64,000 nucleotides of DNA, taken from assembly GCF_024721305.1 (NCBI RefSeq), contig NZ_JAMXOD010000007.1, positions 61,880-125,879 of the forward strand, given 5' to 3'. This DNA comes from Aequitasia blattaphilus (GTDB lineage Bacteria > Bacillota > Clostridia > Lachnospirales > Lachnospiraceae). The position numbers were made by a program, and so were the translations under genes. Numbering within the stretch: the first letter of the stretch is position 1; every line of letters starts with the position of its first letter. Below, piece by piece: positions 12,945-48,304 of this stretch. The notes beneath the pieces were generated by a model. That model was not told where the DNA came from and searched no databases. It saw only the letters and a program-made list of their open reading frames with translations.

Positions 12945-12946
12945 AA

Positions 12947-32155: not shown

Positions 32156-34117
32156 TCAAACCCCTTCCTTTTCTGCCACCAAGAGGTAATATCCCGGCTT
32201 TTCCACCTTCATAAATTCACATAAACTGCATTTCTTACACTCCTTACATTCCTTTGCAGCAAACTCTTCCAAGGAACCATATTTTAGAATCAACTTGATT
32301 GTTAGGTCTCTCAGCAGCGCCGTATGATCCTCAAATTCCTGTATGCAAAATCCGGCACTTTTAATCTGATCTTGTATGGGAGAATTTATTCTACTGTAAA
32401 CATCCGTTAATACAAGTTTCCCCTTTTCTTTCAACAGGGCATTCACACTTTTTAACACTTCCTTAGTATCCTCCATATGAGATAATGTACATTCCATAAA
32501 AATCACATCATACTTCTTCTCTTTTACAAGGATGGATTCCAGACTTCCTACTTCAATCGGCAAATCCGGAGTACGTTTTTTTCCAGATACTATCATTTCT
32601 ACCGCTGTATCAATCCCTTCTGCCAGGGCTCCATAGCTTTTCCTTAGAAACTCCACGCTCTCTCCACTTCCACATCCAATATCAAGTATCCTCATCCCCT
32701 CTTTTATTCCACAAATTTGAGCGCCTCTGTCGGTAAGCTCCAATCCCCCAATCCGAATCGGTCCTCCGGTTATAGATTTCAGCGCCTTACACGGTGTCTC
32801 TTTTCCTCTATAAAGGGAAGTTCCATTTTGTGCCGTTAAATTATAGGCACAAAAAGGTACCAACTTCCCCTCCTCACTGACAATATTAATGTAGCACCGC
32901 TCTAATCTTTCCAAATCTACCGTCCACACATCCTGAAAGGCCATAGCTGAAATTGCCAGTGTGTGATTTTGCCGCTCTTCCAAAAATTGATCCAGTGCAT
33001 CCAAATCAAAGGATTTCCCCAGCTCCTTTTTTACATCCTCTTCTATGCTCCACTTATTTGCTACTGCTTCCCTTGCCACATCACTACTGCAGCAACAGGA
33101 CTGATCTGCCTTTCTCACAACCTCCCACACATCATTTTTAATGATATAATCTGCGTTTATGGAGCAAAGAGGATGCTCTGCCCTTCCAAATGAAAAGTCC
33201 TCTGCCTTTGCCTTCCCTCCTGTCTGCTCCTGGATTCGGTTCAACAGTTCCGGCAAACTAATATGTGCTCTTGCATCCGGTTCTTCCTCATAGCGTCCAA
33301 AGTAACTCATAGGCTGAAAGTGAACCCCTTTGACCGTGGGCATATTAGTTACCGCAAAGTCTAAGACCTCTCCAATATGCTCTTCATTACAATCTCTCAT
33401 CAAAGTGGGAACAAGAACCACCGATAGTCCTACCTCCTTACAATTTCTTATTGCCCCCTCTTTTTCTTTTATAACATCCCTTCCCCTTAGCTTTACCACG
33501 GCTTGGCTGTGGGGTGAATCATATTGCAAAAAAACAGTATTAAGACCTGCTGCCTTTAGCCTTCTCAGATATTCTCTGTCTGTTCCAATGCGAATACCGT
33601 TTGTGTTCAATTGAAAAAAAGTAAATCCCATCCTTTTTCCCATACGGATGATTTCATCCAAATCATCCCGCGTAGTCGGTTCTCCCCCAGAAAGCTGTAT
33701 ATTAAAGGGGCCACCCCTTTCCATCAGCATCTCATACCAGGATTTTATTTTTTCCATAGAAATAGGATTTTCATCCTCTTTTGCTGAAGCAAAGCAGATT
33801 GGACACCCTAAGTCACACGCACTGGTTACTTCAAAAAGAACACAACAAGTAGCCTGCTTATGATTCTTACACAGGCCACAATCGTAAGGACAGCCTTGAT
33901 TGGCATCCATCATTGGTTTTTTCGGAGGTTGTGGTGCATGGAGGTTTCGTTTTTCTTGGAAATTCTCTACGCCCTTCCAAAACAAAACCTCATAAAATCC
34001 ATGCTCCTTACATTCTTTTCGAAACCAAACCTCATCCCCCTTGCTTTCATAGGATGCATCAATTCTTTTTAAACATATCGGACATAAGCTCTTCGTTTTA
34101 TGTAGGATCAATCCCAT
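32156..34117 (-). CDS. Radical SAM protein fused to a SAM methyltransferase (TrsS-TrsM-like)
   Basis: 653 aa. N-terminal Cys region with SLCPICLKRIDA and CKEHGFYEVLFW; an extra cluster GCPYDCGLCKNHKQATCC; radical SAM CX3CX2C in SACDLGCPICFAS (about 100); the GGEP motif QLSGGEPTTRDD; late cysteines in SCCCSSD and VPFCAYNL. Residues about 430-650 are a class I methyltransferase: MRILDIGCGSGESVEFL, FMECTLSHM, LVLTDVYSR, with a Cys-rich end (ECKECKKCSLCEF). The N-terminal half resembles the tetraether-synthase-like branch. GGAGG 5 nt before the ATG at 34117 fixes the start, so it overlaps the preceding gene by 20 nt. Product unknown; tied to the aldehyde oxidoreductase by context. Confidence 0.85.
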   Translation of the reverse strand: MGLILHKTKSLCPICLKRIDASYESKGDEVWFRKECKEHGFYEVLFWKGVENFQEKRNLHAPQPPKKPMMDANQGCPYDCGLCKNHKQATCCVLFEVTSACDLGCPICFASAKEDENPISMEKIKSWYEMLMERGGPFNIQLSGGEPTTRDDLDEIIRMGKRMGFTFFQLNTNGIRIGTDREYLRRLKAAGLNTVFLQYDSPHSQAVVKLRGRDVIKEKEGAIRNCKEVGLSVVLVPTLMRDCNEEHIGEVLDFAVTNMPTVKGVHFQPMSYFGRYEEEPDARAHISLPELLNRIQEQTGGKAKAEDFSFGRAEHPLCSINADYIIKNDVWEVVRKADQSCCCSSDVAREAVANKWSIEEDVKKELGKSFDLDALDQFLEERQNHTLAISAMAFQDVWTVDLERLERCYINIVSEEGKLVPFCAYNLTAQNGTSLYRGKETPCKALKSITGGPIRIGGLELTDRGAQICGIKEGMRILDIGCGSGESVEFLRKSYGALAEGIDTAVEMIVSGKKRTPDLPIEVGSLESILVKEKKYDVIFMECTLSHMEDTKEVLKSVNALLKEKGKLVLTDVYSRINSPIQDQIKSAGFCIQEFEDHTALLRDLTIKLILKYGSLEEFAAKECKECKKCSLCEFMKVEKPGYYLLVAEKEGV

Positions 34118-34511
34118 GTTCCTCCAATATCTCAAGACATTTCATGAAGGTTCTCTCAAGCAGTCCCGGACAGACCTTCATGATTTCTACCGAGTCAAAG
34201 CATACAATGTCTCTGCATTCTATACTTCCTTGTTCCATCTCAAACCATTCCACAAGCTCTTTTGCACATTGCTTATATTCAACCGGTTCCATCTCCCCAT
34301 CTGCTCTTTCAAAATAAGATGACAGCATACACACTCCCCCGGTTAATGTTCCACAAGTTCTCTGTACAAACATGCCCCCGCCAAGAGCACCAAGAGCCCG
34401 TATCGTAAAGGGCTCCTCTTTCTCCCGTAAATCCAGGGAAAGCTGCATCATAATCTGGCTGCAATGATAACCCTTTTGAATTAATTCCATAATACGCTCG
34501 CTTAACTCCAT
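34098..34511 (-). CDS. C-GCAxxG-C-C family redox protein (DVU_1555-like)
   Basis: 137 aa. Family features: Cys in KGYHCSQIMMQL, Gly-rich ALGGGMFVQRTCGTLTGGVC, and later single cysteines at EYKQCAKEL, IECRDIV, MKVCPGL and MKCLEI. Family members are small Fe-S or thiol redox proteins, some with selenocysteine; this frame is uninterrupted, so it is a cysteine form. RBS AGGAGGGG. It overlaps the radical SAM gene by 20 nt and lies 13 nt after the small CxxC protein gene, so it is co-translated with the aldehyde oxidoreductase operon. Confidence 0.8.
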   Translation of the reverse strand: MELSERIMELIQKGYHCSQIMMQLSLDLREKEEPFTIRALGALGGGMFVQRTCGTLTGGVCMLSSYFERADGEMEPVEYKQCAKELVEWFEMEQGSIECRDIVCFDSVEIMKVCPGLLERTFMKCLEILEEHGIDPT

Positions 34512-34524
34512 TCGTCACCCCTCC

Positions 34525-34734
34525 TTACTTATCTTCTAAGGATTTCTCAACGTGAAGCATACGACCTCTTGCCAAGGCTTCTGGAATATAAACCATTCCA
34601 CATTTTGGACAGGCAGGTAAGCCAACCGGAAATGCCGAATCCATATAGCTAAGGGTTACCGATCTTGTTTCCAAGGGAAGATCACATTTTCCACAAAGAA
34701 GCTTTACTTCTTCATCGTATTGATAATCTGCCAT
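34525..34734 (-). CDS. Small two-CxxC redox/zinc-ribbon protein (DVU_1557-like)
   Basis: 69 aa with VKLLCGKCDLPLETRSVTLS and LPACPKCGMVYIPEALARGR: two CxxC knuckles about 30 residues apart, as in rubredoxin-like or zinc-ribbon folds. Likely electron shuttle or metal-site adaptor for the neighbouring oxidoreductases. Starts 2 nt after the large flavoprotein stop with the RBS in that gene. Confidence 0.75.
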   Translation of the reverse strand: MADYQYDEEVKLLCGKCDLPLETRSVTLSYMDSAFPVGLPACPKCGMVYIPEALARGRMLHVEKSLEDK

Positions 34735-34736
34735 TT

Positions 34737-36998
34737 CTACCTTCCTTTCGTAATGGAATCGTCTAAAATAAAATCCATCCTGTGACTGTATGCATTATAG
34801 ATATGATAGCCGCCTGATTCTACTAAATACTCTACCCAAAAGGTGACATTTCCCGGTCTATGGTATGCTGTGAAATGTCCATTCTCCGGGTCGATTAACC
34901 GCTCTTTCGTCTTTTCTGCATGTTTAATGACTGCAACAATATCACTATGAAGAATATGCGTTTTCTCTAATTTTCTCTCCAGCTCTTCGTCTATAATCAG
35001 ATTATATTTCTCTTGCTCCTTTACCTCAACCTCCCATAACTCCCTTAAAATCTCTCTCTTTAAAGTCTCCCGATTCTCCCGTCTTTCACTCCAGGTAGGA
35101 GAACAATGACGTATTTTATCTGTCTTTCCATAAAACACCTCCAATATATGCCATGATTCCCTTCCCTTTTTCAAGAATCGGTCTCTGCAATTGACACAGT
35201 AGGTAAGAATGGGCAGCTCTTCCTCTCCGCTAAGTTGTTCTAAAGAGACTTCTGTAATATGATCTGCCACATCCTCGTCTGCAATTGACGCCAAACCTCC
35301 ATAGCCACAACACGGACTCTCTTCTTGCAAGTCATCTCTTCCCGTAATCTCCAATTGGCAATTGTTCGCTAATTGAAGAACGCTTTCCTTCATCTCTCCA
35401 TCATAACGGGCTCCACAGGCATGATGCAAGACCATTCTTTTCTTCTCTTGCTCCTTTGACTGACACTCTTTTAGTATTTCAAAAAGACTTTCTACTTCCA
35501 TTCCATATTCTTTTTTAAATGTTTCATTACAAGTTGGACAAGCCGTAAGAATTTTCGGTTTTCCAAGCTCTTCCCATCCCCTCACCACTTGGCTTTTTAC
35601 CTTTTCAAACACCTCTTTATCTCCAGCCCACTTTCCCAAAATCCCACAGCATGAAAGAAATAAACCCACCCCTTCTGGAATCCTTCCACATAAGTCTTGA
35701 TAGATTGCTTTCACCAAATCCGGTTCCGATGCGGTAAGCTGGCATCCCGGAAAAAACAGAACTTTTGAAGAATCAAATCCTGCCTGATGCTTCACCAAAA
35801 AATGGGACTCTGACATACTGTGCTCCATGTCTAAAAGCCCAAATTCAAAAGCCGATGGCGGCATTTTCTTCGTCTCCACCATCTTCTCTCTGGCTGCCAG
35901 AAAAACCTTACTCATATCCAGTCCATTGGGACAAATAGCCTCACATTGTCTGCAAAGTGCACAGGTATTAATCATTTTATTTGCATGATGTGTCCCCATA
36001 GCAATTGACAGATTGTTATATACCTCTCTAACGTACTGCCTGGGATTCTTGCCATACTCCTGTAAAAATCCGCATTTTTCTACGCACATCTCGCATTTGC
36101 ATTGAATACATCTTTGCGCTTCTTCTATCACCTCGTCTTTTGGATGTTCCACGGAAAGATTCTTTTGATTGGTCAAAAGAGAGGTTCTATAACTGCCCTC
36201 TTTTTCTCTTCCCACCTCAAGATTCACCCCTTGAAACAATCGATCCAAAGTAGCCCCACTGTATCTTCCATCAAACATCTCATAGACGATTCCATTCCTG
36301 GGCCGCAGCCCTATTTTACATTCTCTTGGAACAATCATTTTATAATCTTCAAATAGTCCTTTTATAGAAGAGGTGGCAATATAGACTCCATCAACCTCCT
36401 CTAATAGCGCTGGAACATTCTTGATCTCCGCACCGTATTCTATTTTTACTTTTAAATCCCTTAGAATTGTTTGATCCCTTTCGAATACTTCCAAGGGTAG
36501 TTGTTCTGGAATCAGCTCCCACAGCTTTCCACCTAGTACATTGGATTTTTCATAGATGATTACCGAATACCCTTTTCGTGCTAAATCGTGGGCAGCGCTC
36601 ATCCCTCGAACCCCACCTCCGATAATTGCAACTTTTTTATTCTTTCTTTGAAGAAAGACCGGAGCCTTTCTTGGTTTTCCAACTGTTTCTGCCAGTTTCC
36701 GCTCTAATTTATCCACATCAACTGCCCCTCCATAATCCTTTCTGATACAGGATTTTTTGCAGGGGGCATTACAAGTGTAAGCAAGTATAAGAGGAAACGG
36801 TACTTGCTTTTGATAAATCTTAAAAGCACTTTGAAAATCTCCCTCTCCCATTAACCGGCACATCCCCCTTGCATCAACATGCAAGGGGCACATTGCCGTA
36901 CAGGCTGCAGGCTCTTCCGCGGTACAAAGTGCTTCCAGCTGATGTAGTACTTCCTGACTGGTTATGTTTTCAGAATGAATCGAGTCAAATTTCGTCAT
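34737..36998 (-). CDS. Multi-cluster Fe-S flavoprotein with CCG (HdrB-like) domain
   Basis: 753 aa, no membrane segments. Order: N-terminal GltD-like cluster region (ACTAMCPLHVDARG, NAPCKKSC, about 30-90); FAD Rossmann KKVAIIGGGVRGMSAAHDLA (about 120); two ferredoxin-like sets (CIQCKCEMCVEKCG and CALCRQCEAICPNG, about 315-380); heterodisulfide-reductase-like CCG domain (FFPGCQL, LSCCGILGKWAGD, HHACGAR, ESPCCGYGG, YCVNCRDRF, about 435-600); a C-terminal alpha/beta domain (about 640-753). Probably links electrons from the aldehyde oxidoreductase to NAD(P)H, ferredoxin or a disulfide. Stop-to-start gap to the oxidoreductase is 14 nt. No selenocysteine codon interrupts it. Confidence 0.83.
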   Translation of the reverse strand: MTKFDSIHSENITSQEVLHQLEALCTAEEPAACTAMCPLHVDARGMCRLMGEGDFQSAFKIYQKQVPFPLILAYTCNAPCKKSCIRKDYGGAVDVDKLERKLAETVGKPRKAPVFLQRKNKKVAIIGGGVRGMSAAHDLARKGYSVIIYEKSNVLGGKLWELIPEQLPLEVFERDQTILRDLKVKIEYGAEIKNVPALLEEVDGVYIATSSIKGLFEDYKMIVPRECKIGLRPRNGIVYEMFDGRYSGATLDRLFQGVNLEVGREKEGSYRTSLLTNQKNLSVEHPKDEVIEEAQRCIQCKCEMCVEKCGFLQEYGKNPRQYVREVYNNLSIAMGTHHANKMINTCALCRQCEAICPNGLDMSKVFLAAREKMVETKKMPPSAFEFGLLDMEHSMSESHFLVKHQAGFDSSKVLFFPGCQLTASEPDLVKAIYQDLCGRIPEGVGLFLSCCGILGKWAGDKEVFEKVKSQVVRGWEELGKPKILTACPTCNETFKKEYGMEVESLFEILKECQSKEQEKKRMVLHHACGARYDGEMKESVLQLANNCQLEITGRDDLQEESPCCGYGGLASIADEDVADHITEVSLEQLSGEEELPILTYCVNCRDRFLKKGRESWHILEVFYGKTDKIRHCSPTWSERRENRETLKREILRELWEVEVKEQEKYNLIIDEELERKLEKTHILHSDIVAVIKHAEKTKERLIDPENGHFTAYHRPGNVTFWVEYLVESGGYHIYNAYSHRMDFILDDSITKGR

Positions 36999-37012
36999 AG
37001 GTATACCACCTT

Positions 37013-39751
37013 TTATCGATCTGCTAAAGCCTCCAGTACTTTCTCCGGTCTTGCAGGAACCGCTGTTATTCTTGCTCCGCAGGCATTATAAATTGCATTA
37101 AGAATTGCCGGATGAGGTGCTGATAATGGTGCTTCTCCAACTCCTGATGCACCGTATGGTCCACTTTCTCTTGGAGTCTCCACATATTCAATCGTGAAAT
37201 TATCCGGTACATCTTTGATATATGGGAGTCCACATCCTGCTAATGTTGTATGTTTTTCCAGATCTTCGAAATCCTCTGTCAAAGCAAGTCCAATCCCTTG
37301 TGCTATACCTCCATATATTTGACCATCCGTCGTTGCTCTGTTAATAACCGTTCCAATATCTGCCACTGTATGGAAACTGATTACTCGTACCTTGCCGGTC
37401 TTCGTATCTACTTCTACCTCCGGCAGGAATAGTTCGTACATATAGTTTGAAAACGGTGCACCTTGAGCTGTTTCCATATCGCAATTGCTGCACATACTTG
37501 CTGCCCACTTTCCATCATAGTGGGTTGGAATTCCCTTTTCTGTCATTTCTTCGTATGTATAATATCCTCCATCTCCTTTATCCATTGCTTTTAGAAGAAG
37601 CTCTGCCCCTACACGAATGGCATTTCCCGTCACAACGTTGGAACGGCTTCCTCCAGCCGGACCTGAATTTGGAGTCTTTGCCATGTCATTCATAATCAAC
37701 TGAATATCCTCTGGCTTAATCCCTGCCTTTCGCAGCGTTTCATGAGCCATTGTCAAAGCCCCTAAATCGGCTCCTTGTCCATGGTCTTCCCAACTAGATC
37801 CAACTAGAATCTTATTATTCGGTAACAGCTCTACAAACGCTTCAGATGAATCTACACCATCTAAGCCACATCCATAAATACCTAAACTCAAGCCAACTCC
37901 ATATTTTAAGTCTGTACTTTCTTCATTCTTTTTCTTACAACGCTCTACTGCTTCATAGTATTTTGGCTTAATCTTATCCATCATCTCCGGCAGACTAAAT
38001 ACCTCTGGAACCTGCCCTGTAATATTCGTACATCCCGGACGATACACGTTCTTGTAACGGAATTCAAATGGATCCATACCACAGGCTTCTGCCGCAATGT
38101 CAATCAAAACCTCACTGGATGTAGAAATCTCAGGTGCTCCATATCCACGGAAGGCCGAACCCCATGCATGGTTCGTGCATACCGTAAGATTTTCCGTGTG
38201 AATACTCGGAATATCATAACCTGCACAATGGTATTGAGCCAGCCTTAAGGTTAGTAAATCACCAAACTCTGAGTACGCACCGTGATCTAAGATATTTTTC
38301 CCTCGGAGACCGAGAATCTTTCCACTTTCATCCATTGCCAGCTCCATATGTGCAAAGGTAGGGCTTCTCTTTCCAGTATACGTAATCATCTGATACATAT
38401 CATAGACCAAGCTTACCGGACGATTGTCACAGGCAAGACAGGCAACTCCGAGTAATCCTTCCATTGTAGGACTGAACTTGTATCCAAAGGTTCCACCTGC
38501 AGGATTCTGAATAATCCGAAGCTTCTCCATTGGAACTCCAATCCCTTCGGCAACCATTGCCGCATGGAGATGGATTCCAATTGATTTTGAGTGAATTGCA
38601 AGACGCCCTTCCTCATCAATATAAGCTTGTCCACAGTCTGGTTCTAATGGAAGATGGGGCTGACGACTGCTGTAACCATCCACTTCTGCGACCGTTGCTG
38701 CATTCTCAAAAATAGCATCGATTTTTTGGAACTCTCCCTTTTTATTATCAATCTGGAAATACACGTTTGGCGTGCCCGGATGAATCTCTATTGCATCATC
38801 TGCCATGGCATCAAGAGCATTCATGTACGCTGGTAATGGTTCAATGTCTACTACAACTGTTGCTGCCGCTGCCCTTGCCTGCTCCGGTGTATCGGCCGCA
38901 ACCATGGCAATAACATCACCAAATTGAAATACCTTTTCATCACATAAAATAGGACGATCCCATCCATCACCTTTGTTTGATGGGTATGTGATTAATCCAT
39001 TGATACGATTTTTCCCTTTTACATCCTTATGGGTAATGACCTTATAAACTCCTGGCATTTTTTCTGCTTCACTAAAATCAATTCCCTTAATGAGTCCATG
39101 GGAGACTTTTGCCTGAACCAATCCCAGATGCAGACTGCCTGGAGGCATTCCTAAGGCAATATCGCCACCGAAGTTCCAGGTTCCCGTTACTTTCGCCACC
39201 CCTGATGGACGATGATAGTAAGTTCCCGTTATCTTATTGTCTGTTGGTTTAAAGAGCAAATCCTCTTTTTTCATTTCTCCACGCATCACTTTTGCAGCAT
39301 CCATAACAGCATTTACAAGTGGTTTATATCCTGTACAACGACAGGCATTGCGATTCTTTTGGAACCATTCTCTAACTTCTTCTCTTGTAGGAGAATCATT
39401 CTCTCTTAATAGCTGCAAAGAACTCATAATAAAGCCAGGGCTGCAAAATCCACACTGAGCACAGCCATGAGCCATCCATGCAACCTGAAGAGGGTGAAGA
39501 TCCTCTGGTGTACCGATTCCTTCAATTGTTTCAACCCGGGTGTTATCTGGTATGTTTTTCATCTTTCTTGTACAGGCCCGAACCACTTTTCCGTCCATAA
39601 TAATCGAGCAAGCACCACATTGCCCATTTCCACATCCAACCTTACATCCTGTGAGATGCATCTGAGCCCTGAGAACATCCGAAAGAACGCTTTCTCCATC
39701 TGCAATAACCGTCTGAGCTATTCCATTAACAATTAGTACCCGTTTGTCCAT
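37013..39751 (-). CDS. Molybdenum aldehyde oxidoreductase (two-domain, MOP type)
   Basis: 912 aa, no FAD domain: Fe-S part then molybdenum part in one chain, closely matching Desulfovibrio gigas MOP (about 907 aa) as recalled. Plant-type [2Fe-2S]: CKVGCGNGQCGACSIIMDG (about 37-55); second [2Fe-2S]: CAQCGFCSPGF and NACRCTGYKPL (about 100-145). Mo domain: QPHLPLEPDC, GGTFGYKFSPTMEGLL, WGSAFRGYGAPEISTSSE, HGQGADLGA, TPNSGPAGGSR, and the catalytic Glu in GASGVGEAPLSAPHPA. The Mo cofactor is expected as the cytosine dinucleotide. Oxidises aldehydes to acids with water. Start: AGGAGG 8 nt before 39751. Heads the operon. Confidence 0.95.
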   Translation of the reverse strand: MDKRVLIVNGIAQTVIADGESVLSDVLRAQMHLTGCKVGCGNGQCGACSIIMDGKVVRACTRKMKNIPDNTRVETIEGIGTPEDLHPLQVAWMAHGCAQCGFCSPGFIMSSLQLLRENDSPTREEVREWFQKNRNACRCTGYKPLVNAVMDAAKVMRGEMKKEDLLFKPTDNKITGTYYHRPSGVAKVTGTWNFGGDIALGMPPGSLHLGLVQAKVSHGLIKGIDFSEAEKMPGVYKVITHKDVKGKNRINGLITYPSNKGDGWDRPILCDEKVFQFGDVIAMVAADTPEQARAAAATVVVDIEPLPAYMNALDAMADDAIEIHPGTPNVYFQIDNKKGEFQKIDAIFENAATVAEVDGYSSRQPHLPLEPDCGQAYIDEEGRLAIHSKSIGIHLHAAMVAEGIGVPMEKLRIIQNPAGGTFGYKFSPTMEGLLGVACLACDNRPVSLVYDMYQMITYTGKRSPTFAHMELAMDESGKILGLRGKNILDHGAYSEFGDLLTLRLAQYHCAGYDIPSIHTENLTVCTNHAWGSAFRGYGAPEISTSSEVLIDIAAEACGMDPFEFRYKNVYRPGCTNITGQVPEVFSLPEMMDKIKPKYYEAVERCKKKNEESTDLKYGVGLSLGIYGCGLDGVDSSEAFVELLPNNKILVGSSWEDHGQGADLGALTMAHETLRKAGIKPEDIQLIMNDMAKTPNSGPAGGSRSNVVTGNAIRVGAELLLKAMDKGDGGYYTYEEMTEKGIPTHYDGKWAASMCSNCDMETAQGAPFSNYMYELFLPEVEVDTKTGKVRVISFHTVADIGTVINRATTDGQIYGGIAQGIGLALTEDFEDLEKHTTLAGCGLPYIKDVPDNFTIEYVETPRESGPYGASGVGEAPLSAPHPAILNAIYNACGARITAVPARPEKVLEALADR

Positions 39752-39776
39752 ACTTAACCTCCTTTTAATCAATTTT

Positions 39777-39814
39777 ATGTTATACTAAAACAATAACTAC
39801 GAAAGAGATAACAT
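39777..39814. promoter_or_regulatory. Inverted repeat between the aldehyde oxidoreductase and the 126-aa gene
   Basis: ATGTTAT (39777-39783) and ATAACAT (39808-39814) are perfect 7-bp inverted half-sites 24 nt apart in a 78-nt divergent gap. A minus-strand promoter element is not obvious. It could be an operator or looping site for the ModE-like protein encoded at 40318; inferred. Confidence 0.35.
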
Positions 39815-39829
39815 GTCGAGGTGAATATC

Positions 39830-40210
39830 ATGAACGAAAAACAATTCATAAAAAACCTGGCAGAAAACATCGTGGAAAAACTCAAGACTTCTGCCACAAA
39901 TACAGAGGAACAAGGGAAACTTACCCGGGAATTATTTGATGAGGTTACAAACATACTTCTAAAAGATCAACCAGATGTTACCCATCTTTCTGCCCCCAAC
40001 GGAGTCATTGAAATCATTGATACTAAAAATAAGCATCTTTATCGCCGCTATCTTGAACTGGCTTACGACGAAACCGGTAATGGTCTTCGGCTGCTGGGAG
40101 ACGATATCGGAGGCAACCCTGTTCAAATTGTATTTCTAAGCAACTCTGCCCTTGAGCAGTTGAATGATTTACATGGCGCTGGACCGGATAATCCCAGGTG
40201 TGACCACTAG
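39830..40210 (+). CDS. Conserved-looking hypothetical protein beside the aldehyde oxidoreductase
   Basis: 126 aa, not recognised. Helical N terminus (KQFIKNLAENIVEKLKTSAT), then an alpha/beta region (GVIEIIDTKNKHLYRRYLEL, NGLRLLGDDIGGNPVQIVFL), ending in HGAGPDNPRCDH with Cys and two His suited to metal binding. The ATG at 39830 follows GAGGTG by 6 nt; the upstream GTG at 39821 lies in the RBS. It is divergent from the aldehyde oxidoreductase and precedes the nucleotidyltransferase gene, so it may belong to the same system. Confidence 0.7.
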   Translation: MNEKQFIKNLAENIVEKLKTSATNTEEQGKLTRELFDEVTNILLKDQPDVTHLSAPNGVIEIIDTKNKHLYRRYLELAYDETGNGLRLLGDDIGGNPVQIVFLSNSALEQLNDLHGAGPDNPRCDH

Positions 40211-40222
40211 TTCCTTGTTAAT

Positions 40223-40266
40223 TGTCTGAAATCTCTTTAGTTATTTTTAGTATATCAGACAGTTTT
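40223..40266 (+). terminator. Weak hairpin after the 126-aa gene
   Basis: TGTCTGA (40223-40229) pairs with TCAGACA (40255-40261), long loop, followed by GTTTTG. Too weak to be sure it stops transcription into the nucleotidyltransferase gene. Confidence 0.35.
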
Positions 40267-40317
40267 GTTGTTTGCGATTTGTTTTCATAAAACAATCCCT
40301 TGCTTTGGAGGAATATT

Positions 40318-41253
40318 ATGCACGGTGCTTTTATTATTTCCATCGATACAAACACAAGAAAAAACGGCTATCATCCAACGACGGAAGTGGAGGGAATTTC
40401 CTCTTTAAAACGTCTTGTTATTACCTTGCAGGAGCAGAATCTCTCTCCTATCATTGTTTTGACAAAAGAAAAAGCTGCCATAGAAAACCATCTTGCAAAG
40501 ATGGGAGTTCTTTGCCTTGGTCCAGACTTTCAGGATACTCCTGCAAAGGATTATTTCCTGGAAGCCGTTTCTCTTTTAAGTGTCTCTTGTGACTCTGTAT
40601 TTTTAACGACAACCGACTACCCGCTATTTCATAGTGATACCCTCCAGCGGCTCTCCTTAGAAAAAAAATTGCCTGTGCTTCCGGTTTTTGAGAATCAATC
40701 TGGTTTTCCTATACTTTTAACCTCAAAAAGCTTACAAAACATTTATGATCAAGGGAAGCATGGTACCGTTGACTCCCTTTTCAATGAAATCACAAAAAAT
40801 GCTGCCACCATACCGGTCACGGATTCCGGTGTAATCGCAAATCTCGGCTTCCTCTCGGAGTGGAAAGAGTATTTAAAGGCTCATAAAATCAATACTCTTC
40901 GTCCAATATCAAAGCTTATGATTGCAAGAGAACATGTTTTCTTAGGTCCTGGCACCTATCAGCTTTTATTGGCCATTAAGCGTTGTCATTCTGTTCGAAA
41001 TGCCTGTACACTCACCGGCATTTCTTATAGTAAAGGCTGGCGTATGATAAAGCTGCTAGAAGAACAAAGCAGGATACAAGTGGTCAAGCGCCACAAAGGT
41101 GGCGAAAAAGGTGGCTCTACCACCTTGACACCCAAAGGAGAGCTTTTAATCGAAACGTATCAGTCCTACGTCAAAAGTTGTAATGCTGCCATTCACCAAT
41201 TATTTGAAGAACATTTTTCCAAGCTGCAGGAGGATTTAAACAACGATGACTAA
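40318..41253 (+). CDS. Degenerate NTP-transferase domain with ModE-like winged helix (DVU_1551-like)
   Basis: 311 aa. N-terminal 190 residues resemble the MobA/MocA nucleotidyltransferase fold (LKRLVITLQEQNLSPIIVLT, VFLTTTDYPLFHSDTLQRLS, QSGFPILLTSKS), but the nucleotide loop LAAGxSxRMG at the N terminus is replaced by IISIDTNTRKNGYHP. C-terminal about 210-300 is a ModE-type winged helix (LAIKRCHSVRNACTLTGISY, SKGWRMIKLLEEQ, STTLTPKGELLIETYQSY). It could insert a nucleotide in the Mo cofactor, or act as a regulator that senses it. GGAGG fixes the ATG at 40318. Overlaps the ligase gene by 8 nt. Confidence 0.78.
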   Translation: MHGAFIISIDTNTRKNGYHPTTEVEGISSLKRLVITLQEQNLSPIIVLTKEKAAIENHLAKMGVLCLGPDFQDTPAKDYFLEAVSLLSVSCDSVFLTTTDYPLFHSDTLQRLSLEKKLPVLPVFENQSGFPILLTSKSLQNIYDQGKHGTVDSLFNEITKNAATIPVTDSGVIANLGFLSEWKEYLKAHKINTLRPISKLMIAREHVFLGPGTYQLLLAIKRCHSVRNACTLTGISYSKGWRMIKLLEEQSRIQVVKRHKGGEKGGSTTLTPKGELLIETYQSYVKSCNAAIHQLFEEHFSKLQEDLNNDD

Positions 41254-42397
41254 GATTCAGAAAAAAATGGCTTTTGAAATTGTCTCTTATGCAAAAGAAA
41301 ACAGTGCTTTTTACAAAAGACATTTTCAACAATTAAGCTTTCCAGACTTTGAAGATCTCCCTTTTACAAATGGAGACCTCTTAAGCAAGCATGGGGAAGA
41401 AATGCTTTGTACAAGTCTTGGTGAAATATCCCGCATTCGAACTTTCTCCACTTCTGGAAGTAGTGGCACCCCAAAAAGATTCTTTTTTGGCACAGAAGAT
41501 CAGGAAAGAACGATCCGCTTCTTTGCTCAAGGAATGGCATCTATTGCACCGAAGGATCATCCTGTTCTTATTTTAATGTCTGATGATAAACCCGGGAGCA
41601 TTGGAAGTCTTTTAAAAGAAGGCTTAAGACGCATCAACAGAAAAGGAATTATTTACGGTCGTCCGAAAGATTTGACAACCATACTGAAGGAAATAAAGGA
41701 TGTAGGATGCATTGTTGGCATGCCTTCTGATGTATATTATCTTTGTAAGAAAGCGCCCCAAAACAATATCCCTTCGGTTCTTCTTAGTGCAGATTACGTA
41801 TCTCCTGCTATCATTCAGGCCATCGAATCTCTTTGGGGCTCACAAGTTTTTACCCATTATGGCCTTACCGAAACTTGTTACGGCCTTGCAGTTCAATGCA
41901 GCAAGGGCAAAGATCTTCACTTGCGAAACAATGATTTCTATACGGAAATCATCGATCCCGACACCGAAGAAGTATTGCTTCCCGGTCAAAAAGGAGAGAT
42001 TGTGCTCACAAGTCTTCATCCAAGTCCACTTCCTCTGATTCGTTACCGAACAGGAGATATTGGCTCACTCTCAGCCACTCCCTGCTTATGTGGAGATCAC
42101 GCTTTAAAACTCCATCGTGTATACGGTCGGTTGCAGAATTTAAAAACCCCCATAAACATCCACTTCTTAGATGATACCATCTATGCTCTAAAAGAAGTTT
42201 ATGCTTATGAGGCTACCTTAACACGCTCTGAATTGCATTTAATCATTGATGGTAAAATTCCATCTATTTCCGAGCTGTCCAAATGTATTGGAATCCCTTT
42301 AAATATTACGTATCAGTCCTTGTTGCCCTGGACAAATTCTGGAAAAAGAAGGCTTACTCTTGCCCACGAATCTGAATCATTTGAGCCACAATACTAA
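41246..42397 (+). CDS. PaaK-like AMP-dependent ligase (DVU_1553-like)
   Basis: 383 aa, adenylate-forming fold. Phosphate loop FSTSGSSGTPKRFFFG (about 68-83), VFTHYGLTETCYGLAV (Tyr-Gly-x-Thr-Glu type), PLIRYRTGDIG, and a Cys pair in PCLCGDHAL. The C-terminal lid is short. Expected to adenylate a carboxylate and perhaps form a CoA thioester; the substrate is not known, though an acid made by the aldehyde oxidoreductase or a cofactor carboxylate are options. Its 3' end overlaps the convergent xdhC gene by 44 nt. Confidence 0.8.
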   Translation: MTKIQKKMAFEIVSYAKENSAFYKRHFQQLSFPDFEDLPFTNGDLLSKHGEEMLCTSLGEISRIRTFSTSGSSGTPKRFFFGTEDQERTIRFFAQGMASIAPKDHPVLILMSDDKPGSIGSLLKEGLRRINRKGIIYGRPKDLTTILKEIKDVGCIVGMPSDVYYLCKKAPQNNIPSVLLSADYVSPAIIQAIESLWGSQVFTHYGLTETCYGLAVQCSKGKDLHLRNNDFYTEIIDPDTEEVLLPGQKGEIVLTSLHPSPLPLIRYRTGDIGSLSATPCLCGDHALKLHRVYGRLQNLKTPINIHFLDDTIYALKEVYAYEATLTRSELHLIIDGKIPSISELSKCIGIPLNITYQSLLPWTNSGKRRLTLAHESESFEPQY

Positions 42398-43301
42398 TCG
42401 CTATCTCTGCTGGAGTTTTTGCTCCAATTGCCAGTCCAATGGGGGTTGTAATTCTTTCAAAATCCTGTTCTGTAAATCCCTTCTTCTTCAGCCTTTCAAA
42501 TACCCCTGCCTTTTTCTTTCTGCTGCCAATTACTCCTATATACTTCGCCGGAGTTTTTAATATCTGCTCCATAATCCTTTCATCATCCTTATGGCCTCTT
42601 GTCATGATGACAACATAATCCTCTTGTTGAATTGTAACACCACCTAAAATCTGATGATTATCCGTTCGGATTGTCTGACAAACACCAGGGAATAGTTCCC
42701 TTTTCGTAAACTCTTCCCGATCCTCCAATACAATACACTGAAACTCTACAGAGGCCAGCACCGGCACCAATGCCTGAGACACGTGGCCGCCTCCAAAAAT
42801 ATAAACCTTTTCTGGCGCTTTAATCTCTTCAATATAATGATTTGAATACTGTTTTAAATCTTCTGTATCAGGAACCAGCTTCCATTCCCCTTTTGAGCTT
42901 TCTGCCGTTTCTGCAACCAACCATGCTTTTTTATTTTTCTCATAGACTTCGTCAATTCCCTTACACAGTTCCAGAAAATCCTGATTTCCTCCAGGAATGT
43001 ACTTCAAATATATTGTAACATCTCCACCACAAATCATTCCTAAATCCTGAATTTCATTTTTCTTAAGCTGATAGGACAAAAGCTGGGATTCTTTTCTAAG
43101 CAGTGCTTTTTTTGCTTCCTCTTCACTCATAAGCTCTACCATTCCACCCCCTATCGTACCTAGGGAGCGCCCCTCTTTTGTAACCAGCATTTTGGCACCT
43201 GTACCTCTTGGTGTGGAACCGCTGCTGCTTACAATCGTAACCACAACAATATCTTCCTTTTTCTCTATATACTCTTTTGCTTTTTGAAATAATTCTCTCA
43301 T
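42354..43301 (-). CDS. xdhC: XdhC/CoxI family Mo-cofactor sulfuration/insertion protein
   Basis: 315 aa. N-terminal XdhC domain: VVVTIVSSSGSTPRGTGAKM, GTIGGGMVELM and the Cys in DLGMICGGDVTIYL; C-terminal Rossmann domain: KVYIFGGGHVSQALVPVLAS, YVVIMTRGHKDD, KYIGVIGSRKKKAGVFERLK and ITTPIGLAIGAKTPAEIAIS. Delivers sulfurated molybdenum cofactor to xanthine-dehydrogenase-family enzymes, here probably the aldehyde oxidoreductase. Starts 4 nt inside modC (ATGA); the longer frame to 43451 is a modC shadow. Last gene of the Mo-supply operon. Confidence 0.9.
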   Translation of the reverse strand: MRELFQKAKEYIEKKEDIVVVTIVSSSGSTPRGTGAKMLVTKEGRSLGTIGGGMVELMSEEEAKKALLRKESQLLSYQLKKNEIQDLGMICGGDVTIYLKYIPGGNQDFLELCKGIDEVYEKNKKAWLVAETAESSKGEWKLVPDTEDLKQYSNHYIEEIKAPEKVYIFGGGHVSQALVPVLASVEFQCIVLEDREEFTKRELFPGVCQTIRTDNHQILGGVTIQQEDYVVIMTRGHKDDERIMEQILKTPAKYIGVIGSRKKKAGVFERLKKKGFTEQDFERITTPIGLAIGAKTPAEIAISIVAQMIQIRGQE

Positions 43302-44350
43302 TTGTTTTTCTCCGGATACAAGCAAAGCACATTGACTGGAGAAATGCCAAGTTCTTCTGGCATTTCTCCAGGGAATCGATCCTTTGGTATTCTCCACCAT
43401 AAATCCTTTGATTCCTGAGCTTGTTTCTTGTATCGAAATTGAATAATCCACTCAAATGGTTCTTCCATCATTCCCGTCTTTACCACCTCGTGTCGATTAG
43501 ACTTCACCTTTGCTCCAAAGTAATGTGCACGAATTCCAATTGCTTCTAAATGATCCTTTACCGGTTCCTTTGTCTCAAGCCGAATTCCCCATTTCGGAAC
43601 CTCTACTTCGTACTCCCCTGTCTTTTTTGCTTCAATCACATTTTTACATCCTGTGATTTCTGCCCCTAATATTGTTTCCGGGTTTGCAAAGATGGCTTTT
43701 GTTTTCTTAGTGGTAAATATCCGTCCATCTCCCATTAGTGAAATATTTTCACACATATGGTATGCTTCATTTCGGTTATGGGTTACCATCAAAACCGGTC
43801 TTCCATAGAGTGCTAGAAGTTCTTTGATTTCAATTTGAAGCTTGCTGCGTAAATGGGTATCCAGAGCAGAGAAAGGTTCGTCCAGCATCAGAAGCTTCGG
43901 TTGATTCACCAAGATTCTTGCAAGAGCAACTCTTTGCTGCTGCCCTCCCGACAATTGATGAATTCCATGCCTCTCCATTCCTCTTAGCTGAAGTAAATCA
44001 ATCACCTCACGAAAACGTTTCTTTTTCTCTGCCGAATTCTTTACAAAATGAAGACCACATAGGATGTTTTTTTCCACATTCATATTGGGAAACAATGCAT
44101 AGTTTTGAAAAAGATACCCTACCCTTCGTTTTTGTGGCGGGAGATTAATCTTTTTCTCACTGTCAAACAAAGTGACCCCATCCAGAACAATTCTTCCCCT
44201 GTCCGGTGTCTCGATCCCTGCAATACAGCGAAGCGTCATGCTTTTTCCGCAACCTGAAGGGCCTAAAATCCCCATCGTACCCTTCTGTGTATTCAAGGTG
44301 ATTTGCAAATGAAAGTGGCCGATTTTTTTTTCAATGTCTACTTGAAGCAT
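43298..44350 (-). CDS. modC: Molybdate ABC transporter ATP-binding protein
   Basis: 350 aa. Walker A GILGPSGCGKSMTLRCIAG, Q-loop YLFQNYALFPNMNVEKNI, signature HQLSGGQQQRVALARILVNQ, Walker B LLMLDEPFSALD, H-loop MVTHNRNEA; the C-terminal 110 residues form a TOBE/Mop-like molybdate-binding domain. ATG at 44350 overlaps the modB stop (TAATG) and follows GGAGG. Drives high-affinity molybdate import. Confidence 0.92.
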   Translation of the reverse strand: MLQVDIEKKIGHFHLQITLNTQKGTMGILGPSGCGKSMTLRCIAGIETPDRGRIVLDGVTLFDSEKKINLPPQKRRVGYLFQNYALFPNMNVEKNILCGLHFVKNSAEKKKRFREVIDLLQLRGMERHGIHQLSGGQQQRVALARILVNQPKLLMLDEPFSALDTHLRSKLQIEIKELLALYGRPVLMVTHNRNEAYHMCENISLMGDGRIFTTKKTKAIFANPETILGAEITGCKNVIEAKKTGEYEVEVPKWGIRLETKEPVKDHLEAIGIRAHYFGAKVKSNRHEVVKTGMMEEPFEWIIQFRYKKQAQESKDLWWRIPKDRFPGEMPEELGISPVNVLCLYPEKNK

Positions 44351-45018
44351 TATCCCTGCCTCCAATCATTCTGTCTTTTTTCCATGGTATTCACAATCAG
44401 TAATACCACTGCTGATATCGCCAGATTCAGAAGCACCCATTTTGTCGCACCGGCATTATCTCCGGTGCGCCAAAGCTGATAGACTGTTGTAGATATGGTT
44501 GCCGTTTTCCCCGGAGTATAGCCCACCATCATACTGGTTGCTCCATATTCGCCTAAGGCTCTGGCAAAGGCAAGAACACTCCCTGCTATAATTCCCTGCT
44601 TACAATAAGGCATACGGATGCACCAAAAAATATACGTATTGGAGAGTCCCAGAGTCTGCCCGGAATAGGAAAGTGTTTCATCAAAGCTTTCAAAAGCCCC
44701 TCTTGCTGTTCGATACATAAGAGGAAAAGCAACCACGGATGCAGTAATAATTCCTCCATACCAGGTCATTACAAACTGAATTCCATGCTCCTTTAGAAAC
44801 TGCCCTACGGGTCTGTTCACGCCAAATAATATTAATAGAAAATACCCCACAACTGTAGGGGGCAGTACAAGGGGAAGTGTGAGTACCACATCCAAAATTC
44901 CCTTGGCTGCTTTGGGAAGCTTCGCAATATAGTAAGCCGCAAAGATTCCCAGAAAAAACACGATTACACTGCTTAGTATCGCAATGCGTATGGAATTCCA
45001 TAATGGAAACCAATCCAT
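44350..45018 (-). CDS. modB: Molybdate ABC transporter permease
   Basis: 222 aa, about five membrane helices (SIRIAILSSVIVFFLGIFAA at the start). EAA-type loop: SFDETLSYSGQTLGLSNTYI followed by FWCIRMP; the typical LPLVLPPTVVGYFLLILFG and RALGEYGATSMMVG are present. Lies between modA (18 nt) and modC (overlap). Confidence 0.93.
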   Translation of the reverse strand: MDWFPLWNSIRIAILSSVIVFFLGIFAAYYIAKLPKAAKGILDVVLTLPLVLPPTVVGYFLLILFGVNRPVGQFLKEHGIQFVMTWYGGIITASVVAFPLMYRTARGAFESFDETLSYSGQTLGLSNTYIFWCIRMPYCKQGIIAGSVLAFARALGEYGATSMMVGYTPGKTATISTTVYQLWRTGDNAGATKWVLLNLAISAVVLLIVNTMEKRQNDWRQG

Positions 45019-45036: not shown

Positions 45037-45864
45037 CTAGAAAGCTTTTGTGAATCCAACTTTCTCAAAAATTTCTACTGCTTGATCACTCTGTAGAAAC
45101 TCTAAATAAGCCTTTGCTTCCTCTTCGTTCTCAGTTGCTTTAACCACTGCTGCCGGATATAATACTTTTCCGCACATCTCTTCTGTTGCTTCATCCACAA
45201 TTTCAAGCCCTGCACTAAAGGCATCCGTGCAATAAACAACTCCTGCATCTACGCTTCCTTCACTGACCCATGTGGTAACCTCTTTTACGTTGCTTCCGTA
45301 ACTGATTTTTCCACTTTCTGCAAGTACTGCTTCGTCTAGCTGAAAGTGTTCGAAAATTTTCTGGGTATACTGTCCTACCGGTACATCACTGTTACCCATT
45401 GCAAAAAGCATCTCTTCACTTGGAAGTTTACTTACTAAATCCTCGAAGCTGTTAATTTCCTTTGGATTATCCGTGGGTACACATAGAGTAACCTTGTTTA
45501 AAAGCAAATCAAATCTTGAATCCTTCACAAGATACTCCCCTTCTTCCAATTCGTTCACCTGCTTTTCACCGGCAGAAATAAACACATCACAATCTGCACC
45601 TTCTTCAATCTGTGTTTGAAGTGTTCCGGAAGAATCAAAGTTAAAAGACAAGCTTACATGAGGTGCTTCATCCTTGTAAAGCTCTGCAATATCCTGCAGG
45701 GTCTCTGTCATAGACGCTGCTGCAAATACAGTGAGCGCAACCTCCTCTTTTGTCTCCACTACCGTTTCCTCCTTTGGTTCTTCTGCTGGAGTCTTTTTTG
45801 CACAGGCAATTAAGCTTGCTCCTAACACCAACATCATGAATACTGCTAATACTCTTTTCTTCAT
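45037..45864 (-). CDS. modA: Molybdate-binding lipoprotein
   Basis: 275 aa. Lipoprotein signal peptide with lipobox L-I-A-C about residue 20. ModA features: LTVFAAASMTETLQDIAELY, SFNFDSSGTLQTQIEEGADC, DVFISAGEKQVNELEEG, and a C-terminal LEFLQSDQAVEIFEKVGFTK. ATG at 45864 follows AAGGAGG by 9 nt. Captures molybdate (or tungstate) outside the membrane. Confidence 0.93.
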   Translation of the reverse strand: MKKRVLAVFMMLVLGASLIACAKKTPAEEPKEETVVETKEEVALTVFAAASMTETLQDIAELYKDEAPHVSLSFNFDSSGTLQTQIEEGADCDVFISAGEKQVNELEEGEYLVKDSRFDLLLNKVTLCVPTDNPKEINSFEDLVSKLPSEEMLFAMGNSDVPVGQYTQKIFEHFQLDEAVLAESGKISYGSNVKEVTTWVSEGSVDAGVVYCTDAFSAGLEIVDEATEEMCGKVLYPAAVVKATENEEEAKAYLEFLQSDQAVEIFEKVGFTKAF

Positions 45865-45931
45865 AAATCGTTCCTCCTTTGCTATTCGCAAAAATATTTA
45901 ACAAACGTGACTTTACACGTATTGCCCGATT

Positions 45932-46867: not shown

Positions 46868-46868
46868 T

Positions 46869-47840: not shown

Positions 47841-48300
47841 AACGCCCACTCTTTCCACCTTCTTTTTCCAAAAGAAAAATCTCTTCCATATGCATGGATT
47901 TATCCACTCCTTTGCACATATCATACACTGTCAAAAGGGCAATACTGACTCCTGTCAGGGCCTCCATTTCAACACCGGTTTTTCCTTCACAAGTCACTTC
48001 ACATCTTCCAAGAATCCCATGCTCATCTTCCAAAAGGGTAAAAGTCACCTTACTTTTAGTCAATGCCAAACTATGACAAAGCGGGATTAAATCCCCCGTT
48101 CTTTTGGTTCCCATAATCCCGGCTATTTGAGCTACTCCCAGTACGTCTCCCTTTTTCATTGCTCCTTTGGCTACTATTTGAAAGCATTCTTCACTCATGT
48201 ATATTTTTCCACATGCAACTGCTCTTCTCTTTGTATTTTCTTTCTCTCCAACATCTACCATGCGGGCATTTCCGTCTTTGTCTATATGTGAGAGTCCCAT
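47824..48300 (-). CDS. moaC: Cyclic pyranopterin monophosphate synthase MoaC
   Basis: 158 aa. [71 protein letters not shown] and CKGVDKSM are diagnostic. Acts with MoaA to convert GTP to cPMP. ATG at 48300 is preceded by AAAGGGG in the end of the upstream gene; the longer frame is a shadow of that gene. Confidence 0.95.
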
Positions 48301-48304
48301 CCGC

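Follow-up and report, generated by a model that had tools for sequence, protein, structure and literature searches.

In Aequitasia blattaphilus, the gene for a predicted MOP-type molybdenum aldehyde oxidoreductase adjoins the six helper families of the DVU_1551-1559 cassette, and across the anaerobic bacteria searched the link between these helpers and the MOP clade appears nearly obligate. Our leading, though tentative, reading is that the cassette encodes a trans-acting auxiliary system tied to this clade, which would make and handle a separate redox group, perhaps on the tail of a small two-CxxC protein of the DVU_1557 family (R1557).

Gene content of the locus

By HMM search against NCBIfam and Pfam, every gene named in the original prediction was recovered in the window (the whole 64,000-nucleotide stretch analysed), and the reading frames were open, without internal stops. 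Seven core families, MOP and its six helpers, each scored above the curated NCBIfam cut-off, bearing out the proposed kinship to Desulfovibrio DVU_1551-1559. The features are as follows.

37013..39772, minus strand: predicted MOP-type molybdopterin-dependent aldehyde oxidoreductase (NF045668, 1549 bits, cut-off 1100)
34737..36998, minus strand: diclust, a flavo-Fe-S protein (NF045663, 830.6 bits, cut-off 530; Pfam Fer4_20, Fer4_17 and CCG)
34525..34734, minus strand: R1557, DVU_1557 family, two CxxC (NF045645, 95.4 bits, cut-off 60)
34098..34511, minus strand: DVU_1555-family C-GCAxxG-C-C protein (NF045669, 124.7 bits, cut-off 103; PF09719)
32156..34135, minus strand: fusion of TrsS and a DVU_1556-family methyltransferase (NF045646, 586.7 bits, cut-off 490; NF045667, 164.1 bits, cut-off 155)
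39821..40210, plus strand: S129, a small protein without family match
40300..41253, plus strand: decayed MocA-like nucleotidyltransferase with a ModE-type DNA-binding domain (NCBIfam matches below cut-off)
41246..42397, plus strand: DVU_1553-family PaaK-like AMP-forming ligase (NF045666, 328.5 bits, cut-off 300; PaaK-type chains in PDB)
42354..43451, minus strand: XdhC-type maturation chaperone (TIGR02964, 166 bits, cut-off 161.6)
43298-44365, 44350-45018 and 45037-45891, minus strand: modC, modB and modA-like molybdate transport (open reading frames, labelled by recognition from sequence)
45932-46885, minus strand: MOSC-MoaB fusion, Mo-cofactor synthesis gene
46869-47924, minus strand: MoaA, Mo-cofactor synthesis gene
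47824-48387, minus strand: MoaC, Mo-cofactor synthesis gene
48305-49330, minus strand: MoeA-like, Mo-cofactor synthesis gene

The XdhC, molybdate-transport-like and moa genes extend the set beyond 32156..42397, up to 49330, and the TrsS-methyltransferase gene overlaps that of the C-GCAxxG-C-C protein. S129, previously described as an unknown small protein, matched neither NCBIfam nor Pfam, yet it belongs to a conserved family with relatives in 28/80 related loci, all 28 of which also carry MOP. Its relatives share a GxG...C close to the C-terminus, and its translation may begin at the ATG at 39830.

Related genes had been said to occur sometimes as selenoproteins, a form that we did not see among ten families over 86 loci. 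The sole in-domain TGAs were at the last TrsS residue in 12 loci and, in one further locus (L039), a pair three residues before the TrsS end; we read these as natural stops rather than selenocysteine codons. With no TGA readable as selenocysteine in these families and loci, a selenoprotein function in the cassette was rejected. One review, in its excerpted text, lists TrsS as a selenoprotein.

Association of the helper families with MOP

Among Desulfobacterota, TrsS scored above cut-off in 14/14 genomes with MOP and in 0/45 without. Within one family of 288 genomes, 178 held both MOP and TrsS, 11 MOP only, 9 TrsS only and 90 neither; the exceptions were 11/189 MOP-positive genomes without a TrsS match, three of these 11 having been inspected, and 9/187 TrsS-positive genomes without a MOP match. 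The phylogenetic profile of MOP against TrsS came out as the original prediction expected. The helpers also accompany MOP in loci from several phyla: all 39 loci longer than 21 kb with MOP carry diclust, R1557, the C-GCAxxG-C-C protein and TrsS, while the methyltransferase and the ligase occur in 38 each. Seven genes stand in identical order in 41/85 loci, many of the remaining loci being cut by contig ends. In three genomes TrsS has relocated and the other six genes are still in one row; where TrsS is isolated, two of ten such genomes show no MOP. Taken with the genome counts, these locus counts point to a helper set dedicated to this MOP clade and co-occurring with it almost perfectly, as had been proposed. 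A chance grouping of neighbours, for which nothing was found beyond adjacency, has a negligible probability and was rejected on the two sets of genome counts, the locus counts, the shared gene order and the retention of TrsS after relocation.

Where a genome encodes two to four MOPs, the helper set is mostly present once, with a single R1557 in 18/22 genomes holding at least two MOPs and a single TrsS in 20/21. This bears on a catabolic pathway, in which MOP would oxidise a particular aldehyde, the ligase would activate the acid product, and TrsS and the methyltransferase would act upstream on the substrate. Such a pathway would account for aldehyde-oxidising and acid-activating enzymes in one row, and a sigma-54 regulator in 6/80 loci (in the single case tested, a relative of PrdR and DhaR) is in keeping with it; however, the helpers are mostly single in multi-MOP genomes, no enzyme family outside the core other than phosphatase and cysteine desulfurase was found in at least 6 of 80 loci, and the Desulfovibrio gigas MOP accepts many aldehydes (PMC3877041). 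We consider this pathway unlikely.

Fusions were found between TrsS and the methyltransferase, between the methyltransferase and the ligase, and between the ligase and a phosphatase; the phosphatase in turn is tied to an HD part resembling the one in the MocA-like enzyme. The overall chain runs from TrsS through the methyltransferase, the ligase and the phosphatase to the MocA-like enzyme, and its MocA-like branch would also be compatible with an effect on the Mo cofactor. In the mirror-tree analysis MOP at first gave low values, and the run was repeated without the 14 loci whose MOP was partial or scored low. Distance correlations, which ignore common descent, were 0.86 for MOP and diclust, 0.88 for diclust and the ligase, and 0.80 for diclust and TrsS; those of XdhC with the other families were 0.42-0.56.

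The MOP enzyme and its molybdenum cofactor

The window MOP comprises two [2Fe-2S] and two Mo-cofactor domains. Its NF045668 match spans residues 10-916 of 919, and it aligns end to end with 1dgj_A (residues 8-916) and 1sij_A (residues 10-916). Against the selenium-dependent xanthine dehydrogenase model TIGR03311 it reached only 397.9 bits, with a cut-off of 830.45. For decades, the D. gigas aldehyde oxidoreductase has served as a model for the xanthine oxidase family. The enzyme isolated from D. gigas cells is described with an ordinary pterin cytosine dinucleotide and an oxo ligand in crystals, without a sulfido ligand, and with active and inactive forms equal in mass; flavodoxin has been proposed as its electron acceptor (PMC3877041, excerpted text). 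All six helpers are present in the genome taken to be that of D. gigas. A plain cofactor alongside the whole cassette argues against a lasting cofactor modification, and a lasting change to the MOP active site, one form that the predicted chemistry could have taken, finds no support here.

Residues were called clade-specific when conserved in at least 97% of 63 MOPs, the window's included, and in none of eight sister-clade proteins. There were 25 such residues and no cysteine among them, so a MOP-specific cysteine was rejected as a modification site.

These results weigh on the possibility that the cassette matures MOP: TrsS, the methyltransferase and the ligase, together with the MocA-like enzyme and XdhC, would have as their target the Mo cofactor, one of the Mo ligands or an amino acid of the protein. 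Maturation would agree with the tight helper-MOP link in genomes and loci, with mostly one helper set per several MOPs, with the fusions that lead from the ligase through the phosphatase to the HD part, and with a cysteine desulfurase in 11/61 MOP loci, but it sits poorly with the ordinary D. gigas cofactor, the absence of a cysteine specific to the clade relative to its sister clade, and the fact that XdhC is less in step with the other families. On balance we find it possible but doubtful.

In D. gigas MOP the active and inactive forms differ in the oxidation state of a dithiolene sulfur, and reductants reactivate the enzyme (PMC3877041). A role in repair or activation, in which redox proteins keep the MOP dithiolene reduced with the help of a thiol produced by the other enzymes, would build on that behaviour and on helpers that are thiol-rich and carry HdrB-type motifs; by itself, however, it needs neither a radical SAM enzyme nor a ligase, and we regard it as quite unlikely.

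Probable supply of the molybdenum cofactor

The protein encoded at 40300-41253 falls below every cut-off, with 57.9 bits for TIGR00637, the ModE-like match (cut-off 98.5), 56.5 for NF045665, the DVU_1551 family (315), and 28.6 for TIGR03310, MocA (186.45). It has lost the nucleotide-binding MocA motif AAGxSSRMGxxK and ends in a ModE-like domain, features that match the degenerate, nucleotidyltransferase-like regulator of the original prediction and make it a probable regulator. Another MocA candidate (G000:C2:68841-69389) scored 165.6 bits, also below the cut-off of 186.45. None of 14 cassette genomes has a match above the MocA cut-off. Because the cassette MocA-like enzyme is the only MocA-like match of at least 85 bits in 11 of these 14, and lies near TrsS in 8, it probably makes the cytosine dinucleotide; the same count led us to reject the view that the nucleotidyltransferase points to a novel nucleotide cofactor. 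The window XdhC scored 323.5 bits with NF045664, below the cut-off of 350, as did a D. gigas-like XdhC (338.9). XdhC is a usual chaperone, and together with the MocA-like enzyme it needs no novel chemistry.

The TrsS-methyltransferase fusion

The fusion protein has its TrsS radical SAM domain at about residues 13-443 and its methyltransferase at about 460-655. Two stretches of TrsS, spanning both halves, are homologous to the tetraether synthase 7tol (E 6e-112). By pattern search, with Tes motif definitions taken from the excerpted text of PMC9433317, the rubredoxin-type motif CX2CX18-24CX2H is kept in 86/86 TrsS proteins (X20 in the window protein), the N-terminal cluster motif CX3CX2CX2H in 85 of 86, and the radical SAM motif in 86/86. 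All three motifs are shared with Tes (GDGT-MAS, 7tol). Unlike Tes, TrsS reaches 339.4 bits, below the NF045702 cut-off of 450, has no alignment to 7tol in the mid part of its C-terminal half, and carries further invariant cysteines (C97, C324, C347 and C348) as well as the attached methyltransferase.

The redox proteins and the R1557 tail

The diclust protein is built from a GltD-like N-terminal part, a dicluster ferredoxin domain, two HdrB-type CCG motifs and a C-terminal domain. The window protein matches CCG (PF02754), and a pattern search found at least two CCG motifs in 67/68 relatives. Diclust is likely a redox partner.

R1557 has 69 residues and ends in LEDK in the window protein. All 71 relatives (71/71) end in (L/M)E(D/N)K at the same alignment column, the final lysine always being kept, while chain ends in the other nine cassette families are spread over 9-23 alignment columns. 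This invariant tail is a new observation of the present analysis. A ribosome-binding-like motif lies within the tail codons in 49/71 loci. In the other 22/71, GGAGG and AGGAG are absent from the last five codons and the tail is kept, the window locus being of this kind; a mere embedded ribosome-binding site was rejected on these grounds. The tail could alternatively be a docking element. Structure prediction for R1557 gave a weak model (mean pLDDT 67.3, pTM 0.45), with residues 60-66 below 50 and a low-confidence tail.

A model for the auxiliary system

In the trans-acting system that we favour, MOP, which is without the FAD domain of xanthine oxidase, would pass electrons to diclust. Because of its two HdrB-type motifs, diclust may act on a partner that carries a disulfide or a thiol. 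An organic group for the redox proteins would be made or attached by TrsS, the methyltransferase and the AMP ligase, and R1557, with a free (L/M)E(D/N)K end in every relative, is the best candidate for its carrier; the ligase would activate a carboxylate that is then joined to the tail. PaaK-like ligases are known to take small acids and CoA as substrates and are not known to take proteins, which counts against attachment to R1557. The product would not be left on MOP, and the MocA-like, XdhC, mod and moa genes would supply ordinary molybdopterin cytosine dinucleotide.

A bolder proposal, which we hold as a long shot, is a new protein-tethered organic redox cofactor. The ligase would join a carboxylic acid to the R1557 terminal lysine, at its side chain or carboxylate; TrsS would insert or join at an unactivated carbon by Tes-type cluster-bound-carbon chemistry; the methyltransferase would finish the group; and diclust, through its HdrB-type clusters, would oxidise and reduce this group and would itself be the acceptor to which MOP really passes its electrons. 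The original prediction of a novel cofactor or active-site modification pathway is retained in part, in a dedicated helper set whose enzymes are joined by fusions, and set aside where it implied lasting modification of MOP, given the D. gigas enzyme.

Should MOP need six more proteins to work in the cell, the textbook picture would lack either the acceptor that naturally takes its electrons or a hidden cofactor.

Comparison with known systems

No function for TrsS, DVU_1551, DVU_1553 or DVU_1555-1559, and no role for the genes accompanying D. gigas-type MOP, was found in the literature searched, as excerpted. The earlier statement that these genes have no settled function holds to that extent, although curated NCBI models already exist for the families. 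For xanthine-oxidase-family enzymes dependent on molybdopterin cytosine dinucleotide (MCD), the described helpers are MocA, XdhC/PaoD and a NifS-like protein (PMC2997495). MocA- and XdhC/PaoD-type helpers are common to the window and to E. coli PaoABCD and similar operons, but the excerpted text describes no radical SAM enzyme, methyltransferase, AMP ligase or such redox proteins for these operons, in agreement with the view that the window has more helpers than other enzymes of this family are described to need (PMC2997495).

Clostridium ljungdahlii has tandem four-gene sets of MOP, an FAD/CCG protein, a four-cysteine protein and a C_GCAxxG_C_C protein, which were noted as redox proteins with no reaction assigned, the first set being raised on syngas and/or H2/CO2 (PMC5640608). 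These are the same four protein kinds as in the window; TrsS, the methyltransferase and the ligase are not mentioned in the excerpted text (PMC5640608).

A close counterpart is the Desulfovibrio DVU_1551-1559 set, catalogued in NCBIfam as NF045668, NF045663, NF045645, NF045667, NF045669, NF045646, NF045666, NF045665 and NF045664. The window differs from it in the fusion of TrsS with the methyltransferase, in a MocA-like part that is decayed and fused to ModE, and in a ligase placed on the other strand beside the extra small protein S129; neither a histidine phosphatase nor an HD part turned up in the window. Beyond molybdenum enzymes, radical SAM and adenylating steps are combined in the assembly of the FeGP cofactor (hcg) and of lipoate, and hcg also involves methyl and nucleotidyl transfer. 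The likeness is one of analogy only, the window enzymes belonging to other families.

Gene layout of the window

The original prediction placed a set of accessory genes around the molybdenum aldehyde oxidoreductase (MOP), and all of them were found in the window. MOP shows end-to-end homology with the crystallised D. desulfuricans (1dgj) and D. gigas (1sij) enzymes, and the minus-strand transcription order is MOP, diclust, R1557, C-GCAxxG-C-C protein, TrsS-methyltransferase.

37013-39772, minus: MOP
34737-36998, minus: diclust, flavo-Fe-S protein with HdrB-type CCG motifs
34525-34734, minus: R1557, two-CxxC protein
34098-34511, minus: C-GCAxxG-C-C protein
32156-34135, minus: radical SAM enzyme TrsS and DVU_1556-family methyltransferase, single fused protein
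39821-40210, plus: S129, small protein
40300-41253, plus: decayed MocA-like domain fused to ModE-like domain
41246-42397, plus: PaaK-like AMP ligase
42354-43451, minus: XdhC
beyond XdhC: molybdate-transport-like genes, labelled by eye
up to 49330: MOSC-MoaB, MoaA, MoaC and MoeA-like genes

MOP and six helpers (diclust, R1557, methyltransferase, C-GCAxxG-C-C protein, TrsS and ligase) constitute the cassette, of which the window carries a variant: TrsS and methyltransferase are fused, the MocA-ModE protein is decayed, the ligase lies on the opposite strand and no histidine phosphatase was found within the window. Among the loci compared, 16 segments bear ModE; the nucleotide motif beside it is kept in 10 and lost in five (L043, L044, L082 twice, L117), and L046 lacks that part. 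Of 14 cassette genomes, 11 have the cassette MocA-like protein as their sole MocA-like match of at least 85 bits, with TrsS close by in 8 of these 11, and none of the 14 passes the MocA cut-off; the highest-scoring alternative in the window's genome reaches 165.6 bits against a cut-off of 186.45.

Near their C-termini, S129 proteins conserve a GxG and a Cys, and several add a His-rich tail after these, a pattern that hints at metal binding; none of the 29 S129-bearing loci is of Desulfobacterota type. Elsewhere, the window encodes a double-cubane-cluster reductase (11906-14218, minus; NF040772, 503 bits, cut-off 350), paired with a TIGR00241 activase of the acyl-CoA dehydratase type (243 bits) and adjoined by an EF2568-family cysteine desulfurase (14297-15424) whose family also occurs in 11 of 61 MOP loci. 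Also present are a ribosomal protein L10 leader (4327-4469, minus; Rfam RF00557, 81 bits), an oleate hydratase (24825-26594, plus; PRK13977, 929 bits) and a NagC/ROK-type regulator with ribulokinase (52175-54990, minus).

Co-occurrence of MOP and its helpers

Scanning a TrsS alignment over named genomes confirmed at least 569 stretches, the best 80 of which were kept as loci; judged by record title, they span Bacillota-type, Spirochaetia, Fusobacteria, Chloroflexi/Anaerolineae, Desulfobulbus-type and Proteobacteria records. Scored with HMMs built in this analysis, 61 of these best 80 held MOP in the fetched stretch. R1557, the C-GCAxxG protein and TrsS accompanied it in all 61, diclust in 60, the ligase in 57 and the methyltransferase in 56. 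Among the 39 MOP loci longer than 21 kb, diclust, R1557, C-GCAxxG and TrsS were present in every one and methyltransferase and ligase in 38 each; MocA-like protein occurred in 26, XdhC in 25, histidine phosphatase in 23, S129 in 20 and cysteine desulfurase in 11.

The reverse direction, from MOP to TrsS, matters because the 80 loci were selected via TrsS. Among 198 sampled Desulfobacterota genomes, MOP exceeded its cut-off in 13, one (G310) held an 890-bit fragment and five held only a sister clade (740-810 bits). TrsS was sought in 59 of these genomes and exceeded its cut-off in 14 of 14 with MOP, G310 counted, versus 0 of 45 without, among them the five sister-clade genomes; weaker TrsS/Tes-like matches (289.7, 376.8 and 432.7 bits) came from three of these 45. 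Across 288 genomes of the family of genome G371 (MOP, 206-residue D. gigas query, E <=1e-70; TrsS, E <=1e-60), 178 had both, 11 MOP only, 9 TrsS only and 90 neither; 183 of the 187 TrsS-positive genomes were above the TrsS cut-off. These counts show an association of MOP and TrsS beyond chance. Two of the 11 MOP-only genomes were read: one contig (G428) stops within diclust, and G670 lacks any helper in 15.5 kb. All seven cassette genes are present in G433 and G434, where TrsS scores low because the match splits into three pieces inside one long frame. TrsS is rare in the window's own order: three of 196 genomes, that of the window among them, exceed the cut-off, and two more score 486.6 and 338.4 bits.

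TrsS stood without MOP, diclust, R1557, C-GCAxxG and ligase in 9 of the 80 loci, two with a methyltransferase match. MOP was sought in these nine genomes and G114, plus two positive controls: six of the ten carried it elsewhere over cut-off, one at 1099.7 bits (cut-off 1100), one as contig-end fragments only and two not at all. TrsS is retained even where it has moved: G196, G199 and G200 hold the row MOP-diclust-R1557-methyltransferase-C-GCAxxG-ligase elsewhere, TrsS absent from it. The fetched MOP stretches of G198, G201 and G203 held none of the six helpers, and that of G114 just partial diclust and methyltransferase matches.

Divergent MOPs (1100-1180 bits, NF045668) at L250, L254 and L255 have none of the six helpers nearby in the sequence read, with TrsS elsewhere in the genomes; a cysteine desulfurase adjoins that of L250. 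Sister-clade MOPs (740-810 bits) occur at L156-L160, L162-L164, L223 and L224. In the two stretches read (L223, L224) no core helper lay beside them save a weak diclust match (57 bits, L224), and a cysteine desulfurase adjoins that of L223.

Two or more MOPs over cut-off were found in 22 of 25 genomes searched. Among these 22, R1557 was single in 18, double in 2, triple in 1 and absent in 1 (G670); TrsS was single in 20 of 21 (G205 left out) and not found in G670. As helpers are mostly single-copy despite several MOPs, one set probably acts in trans for several MOPs in most such genomes.

Fusions and the R1557 tail

Uninterrupted fusions join TrsS to methyltransferase (window, L043, L044), methyltransferase to ligase (L046, L048), ligase to histidine phosphatase (L063) and MocA-like protein to phosphatase (L082). 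Nine segments combine histidine phosphatase with the HD-type portion of the MocA-like model (HD confirmed by Pfam in L038), and in L037 the DVU_1551-type protein consists of MocA-like and HD parts. Pairwise distances, uncorrected for common descent, correlate at 0.86 (MOP-diclust), 0.88 (diclust-ligase) and 0.82 (ligase-TrsS) once 14 loci whose MOP was partial or poor had been removed; before that, MOP gave 0.36-0.51 against these families. XdhC, the sole rough comparison, gave 0.42-0.56 with the others. Fusions and in-step distances argue that the cassette enzymes form one pathway.

All 71 R1557 relatives end in a lysine in one shared alignment column (LEDK 67, MEDK 3, LENK 1); members of each of the nine other families stop at 9 to 23 different columns. 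A possible ribosome-binding site of the downstream gene (GGAGG or AGGAG) lies within the last five codons in 49 of 71. The tail is unchanged in the 22 relatives without either motif and in the window, whose gene ends tta gaa gat aag taa and likewise has no such motif at this place, so selection acts on the protein end and a mere ribosome-binding site is ruled out. An AlphaFold model was weak, with low confidence at the tail. Such a fixed free C-terminus would fit a carrier or a docking tail.

Cofactor of the D. gigas enzyme

The main rival reading is that the cassette matures MOP directly, and the original prediction envisaged a novel cofactor or active-site modification. We take genome G615 to be D. 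gigas because its MOP N-terminus is 100% identical to the D. gigas protein across 206 residues; its MOP contig carries a nitroreductase-like gene, diclust, R1557, methyltransferase, C-GCAxxG, TrsS, ligase, XdhC and histidine phosphatase. The nitroreductase-family protein (L215:13918-14571) lies between MOP and diclust, and a relative occurs in one of the 80 named loci. In the portions of PMC3877041 consulted, the cofactor of MOP purified from D. gigas itself is a pyranopterin cytidine dinucleotide with an equatorial oxo replacing the sulfido, the enzyme's active and inactive forms have equal mass and differ in dithiolene sulfur oxidation, and flavodoxin is the proposed electron acceptor. Such a plain cofactor despite a full cassette makes a lasting modification unlikely, and that part of the prediction loses ground; loss of a labile group is conceivable.

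Proposed role and comparison with known systems

Most likely, diclust would take up the electrons from MOP, with disulfide chemistry indicated by its two HdrB-type motifs, and TrsS, methyltransferase and ligase would make or attach a group that R1557, C-GCAxxG and diclust use; we infer the steps beyond co-occurrence and fusion. Curated NCBI models already cover the core families, so the gene list itself is not novel, and no function for the cassette was found in the literature searched.

TrsS is homologous to tetraether synthase (Tes) in two stretches covering both halves. Its rubredoxin-type (86/86), N-terminal cluster (85/86) and radical SAM (86/86) motifs are kept, with additional invariant cysteines C97, C324, C347 and C348. 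According to the excerpts of PMC9433317, Tes joins saturated carbons through a bond of substrate carbon to cluster sulfur, and the paper points out bacterial homologues for which no synthesis of such lipids is known. According to the sections seen of PMC5640608, C. ljungdahlii encodes MOP, CCG, four-cysteine and C_GCAxxG proteins in two tandem sets, and the first of these is raised on syngas and/or H2/CO2, which fits a role in electron transfer.
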